Below, piece by piece: positions 7,832 to 20,616 of a stretch of 31,307 nt of DNA. Position 1 is the first letter of the stretch. Every line of letters starts with the position of its first letter. The DNA is taken from IMG/VR virus record IMGVR_UViG_3300030202_001835, positions 1 to 31,307 of that record; one strand, 5' to 3'. Under the pieces are notes generated by a model. It did no database searches and was not told the DNA's origin. It saw nothing but the letters and a program-made list of their open reading frames with translations. The position numbers were made by a program, and so were the translations under genes. The DNA comes from a virus.

Positions 7832-10240
7832 TTATTGTGTATATCTTGTTCTAGTTTTTTGTGTACGATCTAAAGCAAGAACTAAATTTTCTCCAGAGAT
7901 CTCAAACTGGCCTCCAACTTCAACATGCTGAGATCCACGATCTGAAAGCATGCCATTTAATTTACTTAATGGAGCAATAACTTCTGGATTAGATCTAGCT
8001 CCAGCATATTCACCCATTATCCCCATGGTTGCTCCACTAACAATACCACCCTTTGCGAATGCTGGCACTTTTGCAAATGATTTTGAAACTATTGCCATTA
8101 ATCCAGCAATAAGAGCTGGCATAATAAATGCCCCAAATGGAGTTTTAGATGCAGTTTCTGTTCCAGATTGAACTGCATTGGCTGTTGATACTGCTTTTGA
8201 TACTGCAATTTGTTTTAGAGCTGTTTGCATAAGAGCTCCAGCAAAAGCCTTTAAGGGGTTTGTTGAGTTTGCCATACTGCTGGCAAAATTATCAGCCATG
8301 CCTAGCATGTTACTCTGTAAAGCCTCCCCAGATTCCTGGAGAAATTGTTGAAAGCCATTATTTTTTTCTTCTAGATCAGTAATGATTCCATCTGGATCTG
8401 TTCCAGGATCATCATCATCAGTTCCATCATCTCCTGGGCTAGGAGGTGATTTAAATTCTGGAGCTGGGATCTCAATTGTTTTACCAGAAAAAACTCCTTT
8501 GATCTGCTCTAGCAATCCATTGGCCATGTCAGCCCCTTTGCCTGTAAATTCATCAATATCATCAGTAGTAATTAGCTCAATTTTTTCTCTGCCTAATGCA
8601 TCTCCAGTAGCTTTAACAAAATTCTGTATTGCTGAATCTCCAGCCTTTTCAAAAACCCCATTAACATCATCCATCATGCCAGTAAAATTATCATAAACAG
8701 CATCTCCTACTCTGCCCATTCCCTCCTCAATTAGATCATAATCAAATGTTAAAGCTCCTTTAATTATATTTCCTAGGCCTCCAAATAAATCTCCTAATAA
8801 GCCAAATCCTCTCTGGAATGATGATACTAATGCCTCAATAACTGCAACAGCTATATCATACATAGTTTTAAAAAATGCCCCTATTCCATGAATGATCATG
8901 GCAAAAGCTGTTGATTCATTATATAGATCAATAAAATAATTTGCTATATCAACCAGGATCTGTTTGATCCCATCCCATTCACTATAAACAACATATGCAA
9001 CAGCACTAAGCCCAGCAACTATTAAACCAATTGGAGATAATATTGCCCCAATAATCGAAAGTAAAGTTCCGAATAATGATATGATCATTGGCAATGCCAA
9101 AGTAACTCCAGCTAATGATCCAATTAACAATTGAGTTTCAGAATCTAAGCTCTGAAAGGATGATACTGCATTTTGAAAAAAGTTTGAAATTGTTGCTATT
9201 GCTGATGCAACCATTGGCATTATTACAGCTCCCAGCTCATTCATACTGGATGAGATGCCATTCATTGCTTGCTTTAATTTGAAACTAGATGATTTTTCAG
9301 TTTCTTCAAATGCTTCATCTAAAGCATTATGAGAATTTTTTATCTCAGCCAGTACCTCCTTATATGCATCTCCCTGGGATCCAGCTGTACCTAGAACAGC
9401 TGTAAGGGCTCTAATATTAGGGAATAAAGCTGATAAGGAATCAATATTTCCACCAGTAGCCTCCATTAACATTTCAAGAGTTCCAGCTAGGCCATCAGTT
9501 GAAAGTTTATCTCTTAATCCCTCAGCTGATAAATCAAATTTTGCAAGTTCATCCCTAGCCTCTTGTGTTGGTGATGCTAACCCAGCCATTATAGATCTCA
9601 ATCCAGTAACAGCTGAGGCACTATCAACCCCTAATCTTGTAAATGTTGCAATAGATGCTCCGACTTCTTCAAATGAGATTCCCATTGTTTGAGCCATACC
9701 AACAACCCTCCCCAGAGTTGGAGCTAATTCTGATGCCTCTAGGTTACCCTGTTCAACAACTTTCTTAAAAACATTCATTGCATGAGTTGCACTCATGTTC
9801 TCCTTTTTATAGGCATTCATGATCCCTGTTGTAGCTCTCGCAATATCTTTTACATCACCCATTCCAACAGCTGATGCTTTTGATGCCATGCCCAATAGCT
9901 CCAGGGCTTTCTCACCCTCTACCCCAGCTGATGTAACTGCAAATAATGCATCAGATACAGCATTCATTGATTGCCCTGTTCTTACTGCAATTCCCTTGAT
10001 GTTTTGCTCATATAATTTGAAATCTGATTCTGATGCTCCAACTAAGGTTTTTATCTTAGTCATATTTTCATCAAAAGTTTTAGCCATCATTGTTGAGGCT
10101 CCTCCGAAAATTGTAAGTGGCAAAGTAACGGATCTGATTGATCCAGCGAATGATTTAAGGGATTTTCCAGCTGATTTTAAGCCAGCTGATAATTTAGAGG
10201 AATTAACCCCTATATTAACCATCAATTGTTTTGTAGCCAT
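7832..10240 (-). CDS. Tape measure protein
   Basis: This 802-residue protein sets tail length and is ejected with the DNA. The N-terminal half (about 55-300) is a TP901-type tape measure domain: FDENMTKIKTLVGAS, ALFAVTSAGVEGEKALELLGMASKASAVGM and LAPTLGRVVGMAQTMGISFEEVGA are typical. A long hydrophobic stretch follows (about 365-420, including LPMIISLFGTLLSIIGAILS), then a Pro/Asp-rich linker and a C-terminal region with AFAKGGIVSGATMGIMGEYA, the usual tape measure ending. At roughly 1.5 angstrom per residue the tail would be about 120 nm, which is an estimate. It follows the G-T chaperone genes as expected. Confidence 0.92.
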   Translation of the reverse strand: MATKQLMVNIGVNSSKLSAGLKSAGKSLKSFAGSIRSVTLPLTIFGGASTMMAKTFDENMTKIKTLVGASESDFKLYEQNIKGIAVRTGQSMNAVSDALFAVTSAGVEGEKALELLGMASKASAVGMGDVKDIARATTGIMNAYKKENMSATHAMNVFKKVVEQGNLEASELAPTLGRVVGMAQTMGISFEEVGASIATFTRLGVDSASAVTGLRSIMAGLASPTQEARDELAKFDLSAEGLRDKLSTDGLAGTLEMLMEATGGNIDSLSALFPNIRALTAVLGTAGSQGDAYKEVLAEIKNSHNALDEAFEETEKSSSFKLKQAMNGISSSMNELGAVIMPMVASAIATISNFFQNAVSSFQSLDSETQLLIGSLAGVTLALPMIISLFGTLLSIIGAILSPIGLIVAGLSAVAYVVYSEWDGIKQILVDIANYFIDLYNESTAFAMIIHGIGAFFKTMYDIAVAVIEALVSSFQRGFGLLGDLFGGLGNIIKGALTFDYDLIEEGMGRVGDAVYDNFTGMMDDVNGVFEKAGDSAIQNFVKATGDALGREKIELITTDDIDEFTGKGADMANGLLEQIKGVFSGKTIEIPAPEFKSPPSPGDDGTDDDDPGTDPDGIITDLEEKNNGFQQFLQESGEALQSNMLGMADNFASSMANSTNPLKAFAGALMQTALKQIAVSKAVSTANAVQSGTETASKTPFGAFIMPALIAGLMAIVSKSFAKVPAFAKGGIVSGATMGIMGEYAGARSNPEVIAPLSKLNGMLSDRGSQHVEVGGQFEISGENLVLALDRTQKTRTRYTQ

Positions 10241-11035: not shown

Positions 11036-11443
11036 TTAGTTAGTTGATTTTACAATATCTCCAGTTAGAGTTATAGATCCAGAATAAGATACAGGAGATT
11101 CCATCTCTGCACTCATTTCAACTGAATCTAGAAAACCCTCAGCTGTATATATAGCATCACCTGTTACTGCTGTTCCAAATACACAAGTTATTTGAGTTCT
11201 AGCTAATACAAAATCAGCCAGCTCAATAGCATTTGTAGTATCAGAATAATCAACTAAACCATCAAAAGAAATAGATCCAGAGATAACACCAGCAATATGT
11301 TCAGCAAATCCGTTTGAATCTTTTGTTGTAGCTTCTGGCAGATCATTAGATAGTGATAATGAGCATGATGTTGTGTGCCCTAAAGTATTTCCCTCAACTT
11401 TTAGAATTAGATTAGTTCCATTAAAAACATTTGTTGTTGGCAT
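11036..11443 (-). CDS. Major tail tube protein, copy 2
   Basis: A 135-residue beta-rich protein related to the one encoded immediately upstream. Shared signatures are GTNLILKVEGNTLGHTTSC, SNDLPEATTKDSNGF and ELADFVLARTQ. The fold implied (a TP901-1/SPP1-type tail tube barrel) forms hexameric rings stacked along the tape measure. This shorter copy lacks the C-terminal extension of copy 1. It has its own promoter-like element (11476-11499), so it may be the more strongly expressed of the two. Which copy builds the tube and which caps or decorates it cannot be told here. Confidence 0.75.
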   Translation of the reverse strand: MPTTNVFNGTNLILKVEGNTLGHTTSCSLSLSNDLPEATTKDSNGFAEHIAGVISGSISFDGLVDYSDTTNAIELADFVLARTQITCVFGTAVTGDAIYTAEGFLDSVEMSAEMESPVSYSGSITLTGDIVKSTN

Positions 11444-17592: not shown

Positions 17593-18140
17593 TATATAAA
17601 AGGAGTTTTATATTTATCCAGCAATTGCATAGTATTCCCAGGTAAAATATTTACAGCTTTTCCAGCAATAAAATCAGATCTGTAATCATAAAGATTTGCA
17701 ATCATTTTAAATAGGATCATTTTAAATTGTTGAGTAACAGCTCCAGTTGTTTGATAATCAATCAGAATATCTGTTAAATTAGGATCATTGAATTTGATCT
17801 GGCTTTTTCTTGTGCCTAAAAATTCATAATCATCAATTGTGTTATTATCCATATCTTTTACTGAATGAATTGTCATATCCAAAGATCCAATATTTTCATT
17901 TGCAAATGGTAAAATAACAACTCCATCATATGGCAAAGAGCTTAAAAAAAGTTTTCTCCTTTTAGCTATAAAATCAATGCCAGCATAATTCTCAGCACAA
18001 TCTGAGGCATATTGCCTAATGTCCTCTAACAATGTATCATCAGTTGTATTTTCTATTCTTAAATAGTTTTTAATCTCACTTATTGGGCAAATAGATCCAA
18101 TGCTCCCAATGATAGAATGTACCTCCATTTGATCCATCAT
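17592..18140 (-). CDS. gp6-like head-tail connector
   Basis: A 182-residue helical protein. The N-terminal LRIENTTDDTLLEDIRQYASDCAENYAG (27-54) is the hallmark of the HK97 gp6/phage connector family, with a beta insertion (GVVILPF...IGSLD) and a C-terminal helical part with LFKMIANLYDYRSD. It forms the ring below the portal. The start overlaps the EF-hand gene stop by four bases. Confidence 0.85.
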   Translation of the reverse strand: MMDQMEVHSIIGSIGSICPISEIKNYLRIENTTDDTLLEDIRQYASDCAENYAGIDFIAKRRKLFLSSLPYDGVVILPFANENIGSLDMTIHSVKDMDNNTIDDYEFLGTRKSQIKFNDPNLTDILIDYQTTGAVTQQFKMILFKMIANLYDYRSDFIAGKAVNILPGNTMQLLDKYKTPFI

Positions 18141-18355
18141 AGCTCATCAGTATTTATTGATGCATTAAATTCCTCCTCACTTATAACCCCATCATTATTA
18201 GCATCTATTTTAGCAAAACCTTTTTTCTTTTGAACTTTTGATGCCCATCCTTTTGAACACCATTTTTCAGCAACCTTTTTTGGAACATCATATTCCTCTC
18301 CCTCTTTATATACTTTTTTGGAGCTGATGATGTCCGATTCGATTATAATTTTCAT
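18137..18355 (-). CDS. Small head protein with an EF-hand loop
   Basis: A 72-residue protein. The N-terminal part (MKIIIESDIISSKKVYKEGEEYDVP and KWCSKGWASKV) is the small domain often found just before gp6-type connectors. The C-terminus holds a complete EF-hand calcium loop, DANNDGVISEEE (51-62), with Asp51, Asn53, Asp55, Gly56 and Glu62 in canonical positions. It overlaps the connector gene by four bases, so expression is coupled. A structural calcium site at the head-tail junction is a reasonable inference; a single EF-hand may need a partner to bind calcium well. Confidence 0.7.
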   Translation of the reverse strand: MKIIIESDIISSKKVYKEGEEYDVPKKVAEKWCSKGWASKVQKKKGFAKIDANNDGVISEEEFNASINTDEL

Positions 18356-18381
18356 GATATTTAAATTTATTGTAAAAATAC

Positions 18382-18414
18382 AAAAAAAGAGCCAGATGAA
18401 ATTCCAGCTCTTTT
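18382..18414 (-). terminator. Rho-independent terminator after the nuclease gene
   Basis: Minus-strand AAAAGAGCTGG pairs with CTGGCTCTTTT around AATTTCAT and is followed by seven T. It stands 33 bases after the nuclease stop and just before the connector gene block, which then needs its own promoter or read-through. Confidence 0.8.
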
Positions 18415-18446
18415 AAACCAATACAAAATAAACCAATTATGAAAAC

Positions 18447-18824
18447 TCAGTTAATTGATGCAAAGTTATTAAAATTTTTTTTGTACTTCCCCCCTGGAGT
18501 TATTTTAACGGATTTCATTTTGCCATCATTTTTAACAATATAAAATCCTCCATGATCATGAACTAATATTGCAAAATAATCAACTTCATTTAGATCATAA
18601 GGCCTATGCCTATCTAACATCATTTGGATCCCAGTTCTATTTTCCTGGGTATAAGCATTTGGTTTTTTTGATTTTACCTGGATCTTTACAATCCTGGATC
18701 CTGTATCAACCAGGAGATCATATCTGCATGAATCAATCATGGGTTTTGATACAATATATCCCAGCTCCATGAATTTAAGAGCAACAGAATATTCAGCATG
18801 GCATCCCTGGAGATTGCAATTCAT
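18447..18824 (-). CDS. Stand-alone PD-(D/E)XK nuclease
   Basis: A 125-residue protein with the pattern of the small PD-(D/E)XK family related to intron-homing endonucleases: Glu11 in the first helix (GCHAEYSVALKFMELGY), SCRYDLLV with Asp36, and the strand IVKIQVKSK with the Q-x-K pair Gln49-Lys51. The gene stands alone between the capsid transcript and the connector genes, with a palindrome ahead and a terminator behind, so it looks like an inserted cassette. It could act as a free-standing homing nuclease or a DNA-processing enzyme. No intron is seen next to it and the capsid gene is intact. Confidence 0.75.
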   Translation of the reverse strand: MNCNLQGCHAEYSVALKFMELGYIVSKPMIDSCRYDLLVDTGSRIVKIQVKSKKPNAYTQENRTGIQMMLDRHRPYDLNEVDYFAILVHDHGGFYIVKNDGKMKSVKITPGGKYKKNFNNFASIN

Positions 18825-18837
18825 TTGGCTAGTTTTC

Positions 18838-18858
18838 TAAGATCTTGAATAGATCTTA
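18838..18858 (-). promoter_or_regulatory. Inverted repeat in front of the nuclease gene
   Basis: TAAGATCT, five bases, AGATCTTA: a perfect 8-bp inverted repeat that ends 13 bases before the nuclease ATG. It could be an operator or an RNA hairpin near the start site. Confidence 0.5.
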
Positions 18859-18905
18859 AAGTTAAGAATTTTAAAACTAACCTCTATAAAATTGAAAAGA
18901 GCTTG

Positions 18906-18924
18906 AAAAAACTCTCTTAGAGTT
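18906..18924 (-). terminator. Terminator of the putative structured RNA
   Basis: Minus-strand AACTCT-AAG-AGAGTT is a perfect 6-bp hairpin with a 3-base loop that runs into TTTTTT. It would end a transcript from the box at 19103-19110. Confidence 0.65.
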
Positions 18925-19097
18925 GGCCGATTTTAGTAATATCAGATCTTTGATACCCCGAAGGGCTCAAAGAAAAGAGGGAAAACCAAAAACTTCCAAC
19001 ACGCCCAGAGTTGATTCTTGCTCTTTTCTAGTTCACTAAGGAATTGGGAGTTCCCCACGATCAATTAACTCTCCCACCGAATTAGAGGATCAATGAA
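18906..19097 (-). ncRNA. Putative structured RNA behind the major capsid gene
   Basis: About 190 bases without a credible ORF but with nested complementary segments on the minus strand: 19090-19098 with 19031-19039 (9 bp, two wobble pairs); TGGGAG/CTCCCA inside it (19071-19076 with 19045-19050); 19021-19029 with 18971-18979 (9 bp, perfect); a hairpin at 18948-18972 with CTTTGA/TCAAAG and an inner CCC-TTCG-GGG, the extra-stable cUUCGg type; and a terminator at 18906-18924. A TATATTTG box lies just upstream. It does not match a group I intron, tRNA or riboswitch that I know. Function unknown. Confidence 0.55.
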
Positions 19098-19102
19098 CAT
19101 CA

Positions 19103-19126
19103 CAAATATACAAAATAAATTATTAA
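19103..19126 (-). promoter_or_regulatory. Phage promoter element, copy B
   Basis: TATATTTG preceded by AATTTATTTTG, matching 23 of 24 bases with the element ahead of tail-tube copy 2. It would drive the structured RNA and perhaps the nuclease. Confidence 0.55.
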
Positions 19127-19136
19127 TGAAAACAGG

Positions 19137-19160
19137 GATGGCTAGTATAAACCAGCCATC
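19137..19160 (-). other. Strong 9-bp hairpin in the untranslated region
   Basis: Minus-strand GATGGCTGG pairs with CTAGCCATC (one wobble) around TTTATA, followed by CCTGTTTTC. It separates the two halves of the untranslated region and may be a weak terminator or the last element of a longer RNA. Confidence 0.55.
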
Positions 19161-19164
19161 TCCA

Positions 19165-19370
19165 ACATAAAAAAAAATAAGTACAGATCAAGTAGTTCTC
19201 CGAACATTAAATTCCCTTAGCATGGATCCCTAGAGATCCCAGGAGTTTAACTCAATTAGATCAGTTAGATCTGATTGATTTTATTTACTGATCAGAATGG
19301 TTTTTTTGCCATCCCCTTTACTGGAATCTAGCCTGTAAACAAACTCAATGCTAAGCAATCAAATTCCATT
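19165..19370 (-). ncRNA. Second putative RNA segment
   Basis: About 200 untranslated bases behind a TATCTTTG box. The minus strand starts with a perfect CTCAATG/CATTGAG hairpin (19367-19373 with 19344-19350), then GGATGG/CCATTC around an A-run, a TTTAC/GTAAA helix, and several GATC-containing inverted repeats, ending in a run of nine T (about 19171-19179). It may be a separate RNA or the first half of one molecule of about 470 bases that ends at 18906. Evidence is weaker than for the second half. Confidence 0.35.
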
Positions 19371-19374
19371 GAGG

Positions 19375-19382
19375 CAAAGATA
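19375..19382 (-). promoter_or_regulatory. TATCTTTG box after the capsid terminator
   Basis: A TAnnTTTG match directly after the capsid-gene terminator, with no TTG at the usual distance. It would start the first RNA segment at its perfect hairpin. Confidence 0.35.
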
Positions 19383-19383
19383 T

Positions 19384-19411
19384 AAAAAAAAGCCCATTTT
19401 AAAAATGAGCT
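19384..19411 (-). terminator. Rho-independent terminator of the capsid transcript
   Basis: Minus-strand AGCTCATTTT pairs with AAAATGGGCT (one wobble), followed by eight T. It lies about 27 bases after the major capsid stop and isolates the highly expressed head genes from what follows. Confidence 0.85.
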
Positions 19412-19437
19412 TTTTCTTAAAAATAATTAGTGATTAA

Positions 19438-20616
19438 TTATACAGAAATTGCAGTTATTGCTGTACTGAAAGTACCTTGAACAAATGCATTTGGATTATA
19501 GTTAGTTAATGCAACTCTTTCCTTAACTCTGATTGTAACAAATCCCTCTCTAACATTGATTCCATCCTCTCTATAAATGCCAAGGCTTATGCCCTCTCTC
19601 ACCCATAGCTGAGATCCCATTGCAAAGTTACCTACTAAGAATTTTCCAGCAGTACATGCAGTATTTAAGATCACAGGAACACCCATGAAATTAGGCTGTA
19701 AGCCAGCATATACTTGATCTTTTAAATATTGATTAGTAGTATCTTTTAATAATAGGATTTTATGAAAATCTGTTGGATTTAATACAATGTAATCAGCTTG
19801 ATAGTTAGCTAATGCTAGCTGATTCATTGATGCAACTAATACATCAAATTCATTAGCATTAGATACAGCTCCAGCAAATGATCCAGCTGAGAAAGCTGTA
19901 CCATCAGTAAATAATCCAGATAGATTTGGGTTTGATCCGTTACCATTTAAGATCTGAGTATCTTCTACTGCCATGATCTTAGATGGAACTCTTGCAGATA
20001 AATAAGAAACTAATTGCTTATAATCATCCATCATCTCCTCAGAAACTCTCAAATAAGTTCCTAATTTTCTAACATTTGCATCCTTTGCCTCTAATTCAAA
20101 ATCAGTTTGGCCAAGAGTTGCTCCCTCTTGCTTAAATGATGCTCCATCAGAATATGCAGTTTCTTTTACATATCTAACAACATCAGAATCAGTTGATCCA
20201 ATAGGTAAGATCTCTCTAATGTGAGATGGCTTAGCTGGATCAAATTTTACTCCATCAACTCTAGTTGGAGCAATAACATCTCCTGTAAAATCTGAGCTGA
20301 TTTTCATATCAGCCTTTAATATTAATTCTGCATTCCCATTCTTTTTATAAGAATCTAATCCACCATCTTCAATAGCTTTTTCTAATGCAGATTTGAAGCT
20401 CATAGGAGCCTCAGCTTTAGCCTCAAATGCTTTTTTATTGATCATTTCAGCATCATCTAATCTCTTAGCCATAGCCTCGATTTTAGTTTCAACCTCTTGA
20501 ACTTTGTTTGCATTATCAGCCTTAATAGTTTCAACTACTTCCATAGATTTTGTTTCAATTTTAGAATCTATTTCACCAGCTAAACTATCTAACGAATTTT
20601 TTAATTCTTCATTCAT
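19438..20616 (-). CDS. Major capsid protein, HK97 fold
   Basis: A 392-residue major capsid protein. Residues 1-75 form a charged coiled coil, the scaffolding delta domain that the prohead protease removes. The mature part starts about residue 100 and shows the HK97 pattern: HIREILPIGSTDSDVVRYVKET, then SFKQEGATLGQTDFELEAKDANVRKLGTYLRVSEEM (E-loop and spine helix start), a P-domain, and a C-terminal NVREGFVTIRVKERVALTNYNP. It follows the protease by seven bases and is followed by a strong terminator. The usual protease-capsid order supports the call. No cross-linking Lys-Asn pair can be assigned with certainty. Confidence 0.92.
   Translation of the reverse strand: MNEELKNSLDSLAGEIDSKIETKSMEVVETIKADNANKVQEVETKIEAMAKRLDDAEMINKKAFEAKAEAPMSFKSALEKAIEDGGLDSYKKNGNAELILKADMKISSDFTGDVIAPTRVDGVKFDPAKPSHIREILPIGSTDSDVVRYVKETAYSDGASFKQEGATLGQTDFELEAKDANVRKLGTYLRVSEEMMDDYKQLVSYLSARVPSKIMAVEDTQILNGNGSNPNLSGLFTDGTAFSAGSFAGAVSNANEFDVLVASMNQLALANYQADYIVLNPTDFHKILLLKDTTNQYLKDQVYAGLQPNFMGVPVILNTACTAGKFLVGNFAMGSQLWVREGISLGIYREDGINVREGFVTIRVKERVALTNYNPNAFVQGTFSTAITAISV

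Follow-up and report, generated by a model that had tools for sequence, protein, structure and literature searches.

Mu-gpT-DE and other capsid-linked RNA motifs of phages place a structured RNA downstream of the major head gene, and the GOLLD and ROOL RNAs are likewise associated with phages. Both GOLLD and ROOL are structured RNAs of large size, known from bacteria as well as phages (PMC12286853). Smaller RNAs belong to phage-related systems, such as the abiF antitoxin RNA RCd22 (RF03085; PMC12373285) and the ToxI-type RNAs, which fold into pseudoknots to which a partner protein binds. In addition, a Bacteroidota form, 6S-flavo (RF01685; PMC2864571), exists of the autonomous, ~200-nt 6S RNA. 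The RNA described here, RNA B, resembles GOLLD and ROOL in being a structured, phage-associated noncoding RNA, but it is ~210 nt long, matches no Rfam model, and has another fold and another neighbourhood, next to a capsid gene. RNA B is a small RNA of a phage as RCd22 and ToxI are of phage-related systems; in contrast to RCd22 it has no RF03085 match, it is a single unit whereas ToxI is a 36-nt repeat, and, unlike both, it adjoins the gene of a PDDEXK nuclease, which also occurs without the RNA in relatives. With 6S RNA it shares autonomy and size, but there is no match to that class even at E values up to 10, and RNA B has a pseudoknotted 5' domain. Position is the only likeness known to us between RNA B and the Mu-gpT-DE-type motifs, on which a full-text literature search by motif name returned no paper; Rfam gave no match, and membership is not claimed.

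RNA B lies in the IMG/VR virus record IMGVR_UViG_3300030202_001835, whose entire 31,307 bases form the stretch of DNA analysed here (the window). Scanned with the 4227 models of Rfam 15, neither the window nor any of four homologues gave a match at the gathering score, and a relaxed search of 18300-19700, at E values up to 10, gave sub-threshold, chance-like matches only, none of them credible. The initial annotation, made from the letters of the window, had recognised no RNA class and had named a database covariance search as a check; that search returned no known class. The minus strand of the window carries capsid, portal, protease and terminase genes alike, as identified with Pfam. Because matches to relatives wrap round the record ends, the window looks like the complete, circularly permuted genome of an uncultured phage. 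Its promoters read TAnnTTTG, the -7 consensus of Bacteroidota (PMC7366714), so the host is probably a Bacteroidota bacterium. Over positions 1-31307, GATC is strongly enriched (407 sites, 1.74x the trinucleotide expectation, with 82 AGATCT and 30 GGATCC), and ACGT, CCGG, CGCG, GCGC, AAGCTT and GAATTC have zero sites, a bias that restriction or methylation in the host may have left.

The gap between the major capsid and nuclease genes measures 613 bases in the window. After the capsid terminator come two structured RNAs, RNA A and then RNA B, each behind its own TAnnTTTG element:

19438-20616, minus strand: major capsid protein gene (PF05065, E 1.6e-39), the left-hand border of the putative slot
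19383-19419, minus strand: terminator of the capsid gene, from the terminator scan, which parts the RNAs from the capsid transcript
19131-19374, minus strand: RNA A, a second structured noncoding RNA, with promoter TATCTTTG (19382-19375) and its own terminator (stem 19160-19137)
19103-19118, minus strand: putative RNA B promoter, made up of TTTATTTTG and then the -7 element TATATTTG (19110-19103), which matches the TAnnTTTG Bacteroidota consensus
18889-19099, minus strand: RNA B, predicted structured noncoding RNA, from its fold z score, covariation, covariance-model match and lack of a conserved ORF
18447-18824, minus strand: PDDEXK_5 nuclease gene (PF11645, Pfam E 1.9e-17), the constant right-hand neighbour

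RNA B is predicted to be an RNA of ~210 nt, from ~19098 to ~18890; its 5' end (~19100-19097) was placed from the promoter, and its 3' end reaches at least to 18894. The promoter-like element of the initial annotation is borne out. TATATTTG stands upstream of RNA B in every homologue, and its spacing to helix P1 is constant. A 24-base stretch near-identical to this promoter also precedes the tail gene starting at 11443. The statement that the span holds no ORF agrees with the relatives as well: no ORF is conserved across them in RNA B or RNA A, and the longest frames in the RNA B homologues have 17-40 codons and are mostly unrelated. The annotated span of 18906-19126 proved too short and omits the 3' strand of helix P4. 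The fold over 18906-19100 does not exceed chance, with a z score of -1.15 that 26 of 200 shuffles equalled or bettered; over 18889-19099 the score is -3.77, which 0 of 200 shuffles reached. Six RNA B sequences, each taken to its own P4 end, gave z scores of -2.2 to -5.7.

The 5' domain of RNA B is built from three helices:

19093-19098, minus strand: P1 5' strand, GUUCAU, paired with 19036-19031 (5/6 pairs change on both sides; 100% of cells paired)
19031-19036, minus strand: P1 3' strand, GUGAAC, from the covariation count
19071-19076, minus strand: P2 5' strand, UGGGAG, paired with the P3 loop as a pseudoknot (2/6 pairs change on both sides; 87% of cells paired)
19045-19050, minus strand: P2 3' strand, CUCCCA, which is the loop of P3, from the covariation count
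19051-19057, minus strand: P3 5' strand, UGGGGAA, paired with 19043-19037 (3/7 pairs change on both sides)
19037-19043, minus strand: P3 3' strand, UUCCUUA, from the covariation count

Because the 3' strand of P2 forms the loop of P3, these elements make an H-type pseudoknot with P1 enclosing it. P2 (19076-19071 with 19050-19045) was missing from the fold first proposed. The segments run P1 (6 bases), a linker of 15-16, P2 (6), a linker of 13, P3 (7), P2' (6), a single A, P3' (7) and P1' (6), and their lengths are equal in three divergent sequence types, bar one base in one linker. In the alignment of five homologous sequences, whose ends were trimmed by hand beforehand, 95.8% of 95 cells are paired and 10 of the 19 pairs change on both sides; in P2, for example, the relative L004 has CGAGA/UCUCG in place of UGGGA/UCCCA. 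When the partners were slid by 1-3 columns, pairing fell to 31-54%, with 0-1 pairs changed on both sides. Eleven of the ~91 paired cells are G-U, and one G-U pair of P3 occurs in all five sequences. Since such pairs are possible on one strand only, RNA B belongs to the minus strand. A covariance model of this domain, R2, built without the window sequence, found window positions 19098-19031 at an E value of 3.9e-7; the next match was at 1.4.

The remainder of RNA B forms a 3' arm:

19020-19028, minus strand: P4 5' strand, GAAAAGAGC, paired with 18902-18894 (8/9 pairs change on both sides)
18894-18902, minus strand: P4 3' strand, GCUCUUUUC, beyond the span first annotated, changing in step with the 5' strand even in the near relative L003
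19007-19012, minus strand: P5 5' strand, AACUCU, paired with 18915-18910 (4/6 pairs change on both sides)
18910-18915, minus strand: P5 3' strand, AGAGUU, from covariation; this is the 3' half of the hairpin first taken for a terminator
19003-19006, minus strand: GGGN side of an internal loop (here GGGC), facing NAAG; UGGG / AAGA is invariant in all homologues
18916-18919, minus strand: NAAG side of the same loop (here UAAG); the NAAG pattern is kept in all homologues

The GGGN/NAAG loop is located between P5 and a variable tip in every sequence. With its internal loops retained, P4 was misaligned by MAFFT; the strands of P4 and P5 were therefore excised manually and joined through an artificial GAAA linker into composites for counting. 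By this count, which depends on the manual pairing, 92% of cells are paired and both partners differ in 12 of 15 pairs, against 2-5 pairs in slid controls. For the 5' domain and for P4/P5, shuffled and slid controls stay far below the observed two-sided changes. The strong helices and the UUCG hairpin of the initial annotation are present, and its central claim of a structured noncoding RNA, for which covariation among homologues had been suggested as a check, is supported by these changes and by the leave-one-out detection. Its 9-bp long-range helix stands in part. The 5' strand, AGAAAAGAG, is that of P4, but the partner assigned to it, CTCTTTTCT at ~18980-18972 on the minus strand, is not the true one. 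L003 has a capsid protein 100% identical to that of the window, yet three adjacent P4 pairs differ with both sides changed. The 5' strand there reads GAAAAGGAG, the partner first assigned is unchanged, and the strand at 18902-18894 shifts from GCTCTTTTC to CTCCTTTTC. As this last strand changes together with the P4 5' strand, the true partner lies outside the coordinates first given, and pairing of P4 with the other copy of CTCTTTTC is ruled out by the same changes. Likewise, the proposed terminator hairpin AACTCT/AGAGTT-TTTT did not hold: it is lost in L003 and L004, and its 3' half pairs with the P5 5' strand at 19012-19007.

The capsid and nuclease proteins served as queries to collect relatives, which are virus contigs of the same kind. 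Besides the window, seven contigs carry both RNA A and RNA B (L003, L004, L006, L007, L008, L012 and L014). Their RNA B sequences fall into three divergent types, namely window/L003, L004 and L007/L008/L012, with those of L006 and L014 repeating that of L007. No match to the RNA B model was found in L016-L020, in which the nuclease is present, nor was RNA B found in the records of relatives at 43-56% capsid identity. A pattern search for RNA B returned the same clade and one contig without a model match. Phage isolates and plasmids gave no useful match, the short phage matches covering the promoter stretch of the query and being promoter-like, and a search of genome_contigs with the nuclease and capsid proteins yielded no relative of either. 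Judged from these sequences, RNA B is a true family of structured RNAs with no Rfam match; it belongs to a narrow clade of phages and is represented by eight records and three sequence types.

RNA A, just upstream of RNA B, was absent from the initial annotation. Its fold z scores are -2.7 to -4.2 in seven sequences, and among the contigs found it occurs only together with RNA B. In its helix GGAAUUUG/UAGAUUCC, two pairs change on both sides. The 5' end of RNA A may be a pseudoknot too, in which this helix combines with UCAAUG/CAUUGA, a helix that hardly varies among relatives. Outside the known clade, patterns for RNA A matched IMG/VR by chance only, two matches being judged so by their place inside ORFs.

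The interval between the capsid and nuclease genes varies from 613 to ~1480 bases among relatives and differs in content. Relatives at 53-56% capsid identity keep the order capsid, interval, nuclease and connector, and small ORFs occupy their interval, which is up to ~1,480 bases long. The L007-type phages have an extra ORF of ~100 codons ahead of RNA A, and L004 has one of ~40 codons downstream of RNA B. The latter (~3750-3880 of L004) sits between RNA B and the nuclease, starts a few bases past a TATCTTTG promoter, so that it is nearly leaderless, and has a terminator at its end. As in moron cassettes, the content varies while the site, flanked by conserved genes, stays the same, and it has promoters of its own. 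Given the small ORFs in the same interval of other relatives, we read the interval as a probable cargo site, or "moron" slot, a term that is our interpretation of the sequences. Beyond the nuclease, between it and the head-tail connector gene, the window encodes a protein of 72 aa with a calcium-binding loop resembling that of an EF hand (18137-18355, minus strand). In L038, L040, L041 and L044, a conserved AT-rich noncoding block containing TTTAAGGCYATTT and CACCTC lies just past the capsid gene, with no clear fold common to the four.

We lean towards the view that RNA B is an autonomous gene for a trans-acting structural noncoding RNA, carried as cargo between the capsid and nuclease genes. 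This would best explain the covariation of P1-P5, the leave-one-out detection by the covariance model, the significant folding in homologues and the terminators of the capsid gene and RNA A upstream, as well as the promoter at constant spacing, the lack of a conserved ORF, the G-U pairs that fix the strand, and the relatives in which ORFs fill the interval instead. Host RNA polymerase would start at the TAnnTTTG promoter, so that RNA B would begin with P1. The helices persist through changes of sequence, and little of the unpaired sequence is invariant; what counts would therefore be the overall shape plus the internal loop, and neither a guide sequence nor a pocket for a ligand. RNA B would most likely act in trans during infection, as a stable scaffold or decoy for a host or phage protein, with the 5' pseudoknot serving as a binding site or protecting the 5' end. 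A bolder version, which we regard as speculative and unlikely, makes RNA A and RNA B a two-RNA cargo module that would inhibit or divert a protein of the host by RNA shape alone, doing in bacteria what decoy RNAs of viruses, such as adenovirus VA RNA, do elsewhere; in it, the P4 sequence and the arm tip would change quickly and the 5' pseudoknot would stay fixed.

The 3' side of RNA B bears on two other readings. No conserved terminator hairpin with a U-run, which would mark an sRNA ended by an intrinsic terminator, was found at its 3' end, and the terminator scan of the window listed none there or between RNA B and the nuclease. RNA B could thus run into the nuclease mRNA and, lying upstream on the same strand, be a cis-acting 5' leader of that gene (an attenuator or riboswitch-like element). 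We consider this improbable, however, since RNA B is followed, ahead of the start of the nuclease gene, by a further promoter-like element (TAATTTTG in L007, L008 and L012; a degenerate TAACTTTA in the window), L004 places there a separate short ORF that has a promoter and a terminator of its own, and relatives carry the nuclease without RNA B. An autonomous intergenic RNA of this typical size might instead be a regulatory sRNA that base-pairs through its loops with phage or host mRNAs; indeed, Bacteroidota use base-pairing sRNAs such as GibS (PMC7366714). Here, however, loops and linkers vary and the constant unpaired letters lie mostly in the internal loop, which makes this role quite unlikely. 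It is very unlikely that the conserved structure is a DNA element, such as a packaging or replication site: an apparently complete, circularly permuted phage must have cis sites somewhere, but the G-U pairs, one of them invariant, fit one strand only, and the promoter keeps a fixed spacing.

The adjoining nuclease raises two further possibilities. That RNA B is a guide or cofactor RNA of the PDDEXK_5 protein, or part of an RNA-nuclease system, would suit the adjacency of both genes in the RNA-bearing phages; this is highly improbable, as the nuclease also occurs in relatives in whose records RNA B was not found, an ORF separates the two in L004, and the I-Ssp6803I family (PDDEXK_5) is known as one of protein-only DNA endonucleases. 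I-Ssp6803I itself is a group I intron enzyme, which, together with the pseudoknot, speaks for a self-cleaving or splicing ribozyme, for example a group I intron remnant around the nuclease gene. Such an intron, considered because of the PDDEXK_5 match, was rejected: Rfam found no group I core, and the capsid gene is uninterrupted, matching its Pfam profile to the end (2-280/280). More broadly, a self-cleaving or splicing ribozyme is extremely unlikely, given that no Rfam model matches, group I intron and ribozyme models included, that the capsid gene matches the whole capsid profile, and that the unpaired letters lack the constancy expected of a catalytic core; with so few of them kept, a riboswitch is unlikely too.

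Small phages have little room for cargo, and the presence of two conserved autonomous structured RNAs in a 31-kb phage suggests that RNA, besides small proteins, is carried as phage cargo in the capsid-nuclease interval. Moreover, further members of the family can be sought with the fold of RNA B as a model, and RNA B offers a definite bait for a pull-down of host partners. Elsewhere in the window, segment 8400-9150 of the tape-measure gene (7832-10240) is only 53-80% identical to the L003 genome, against a median of 97%, a divergence that reflects a local swap or a fast-changing segment.
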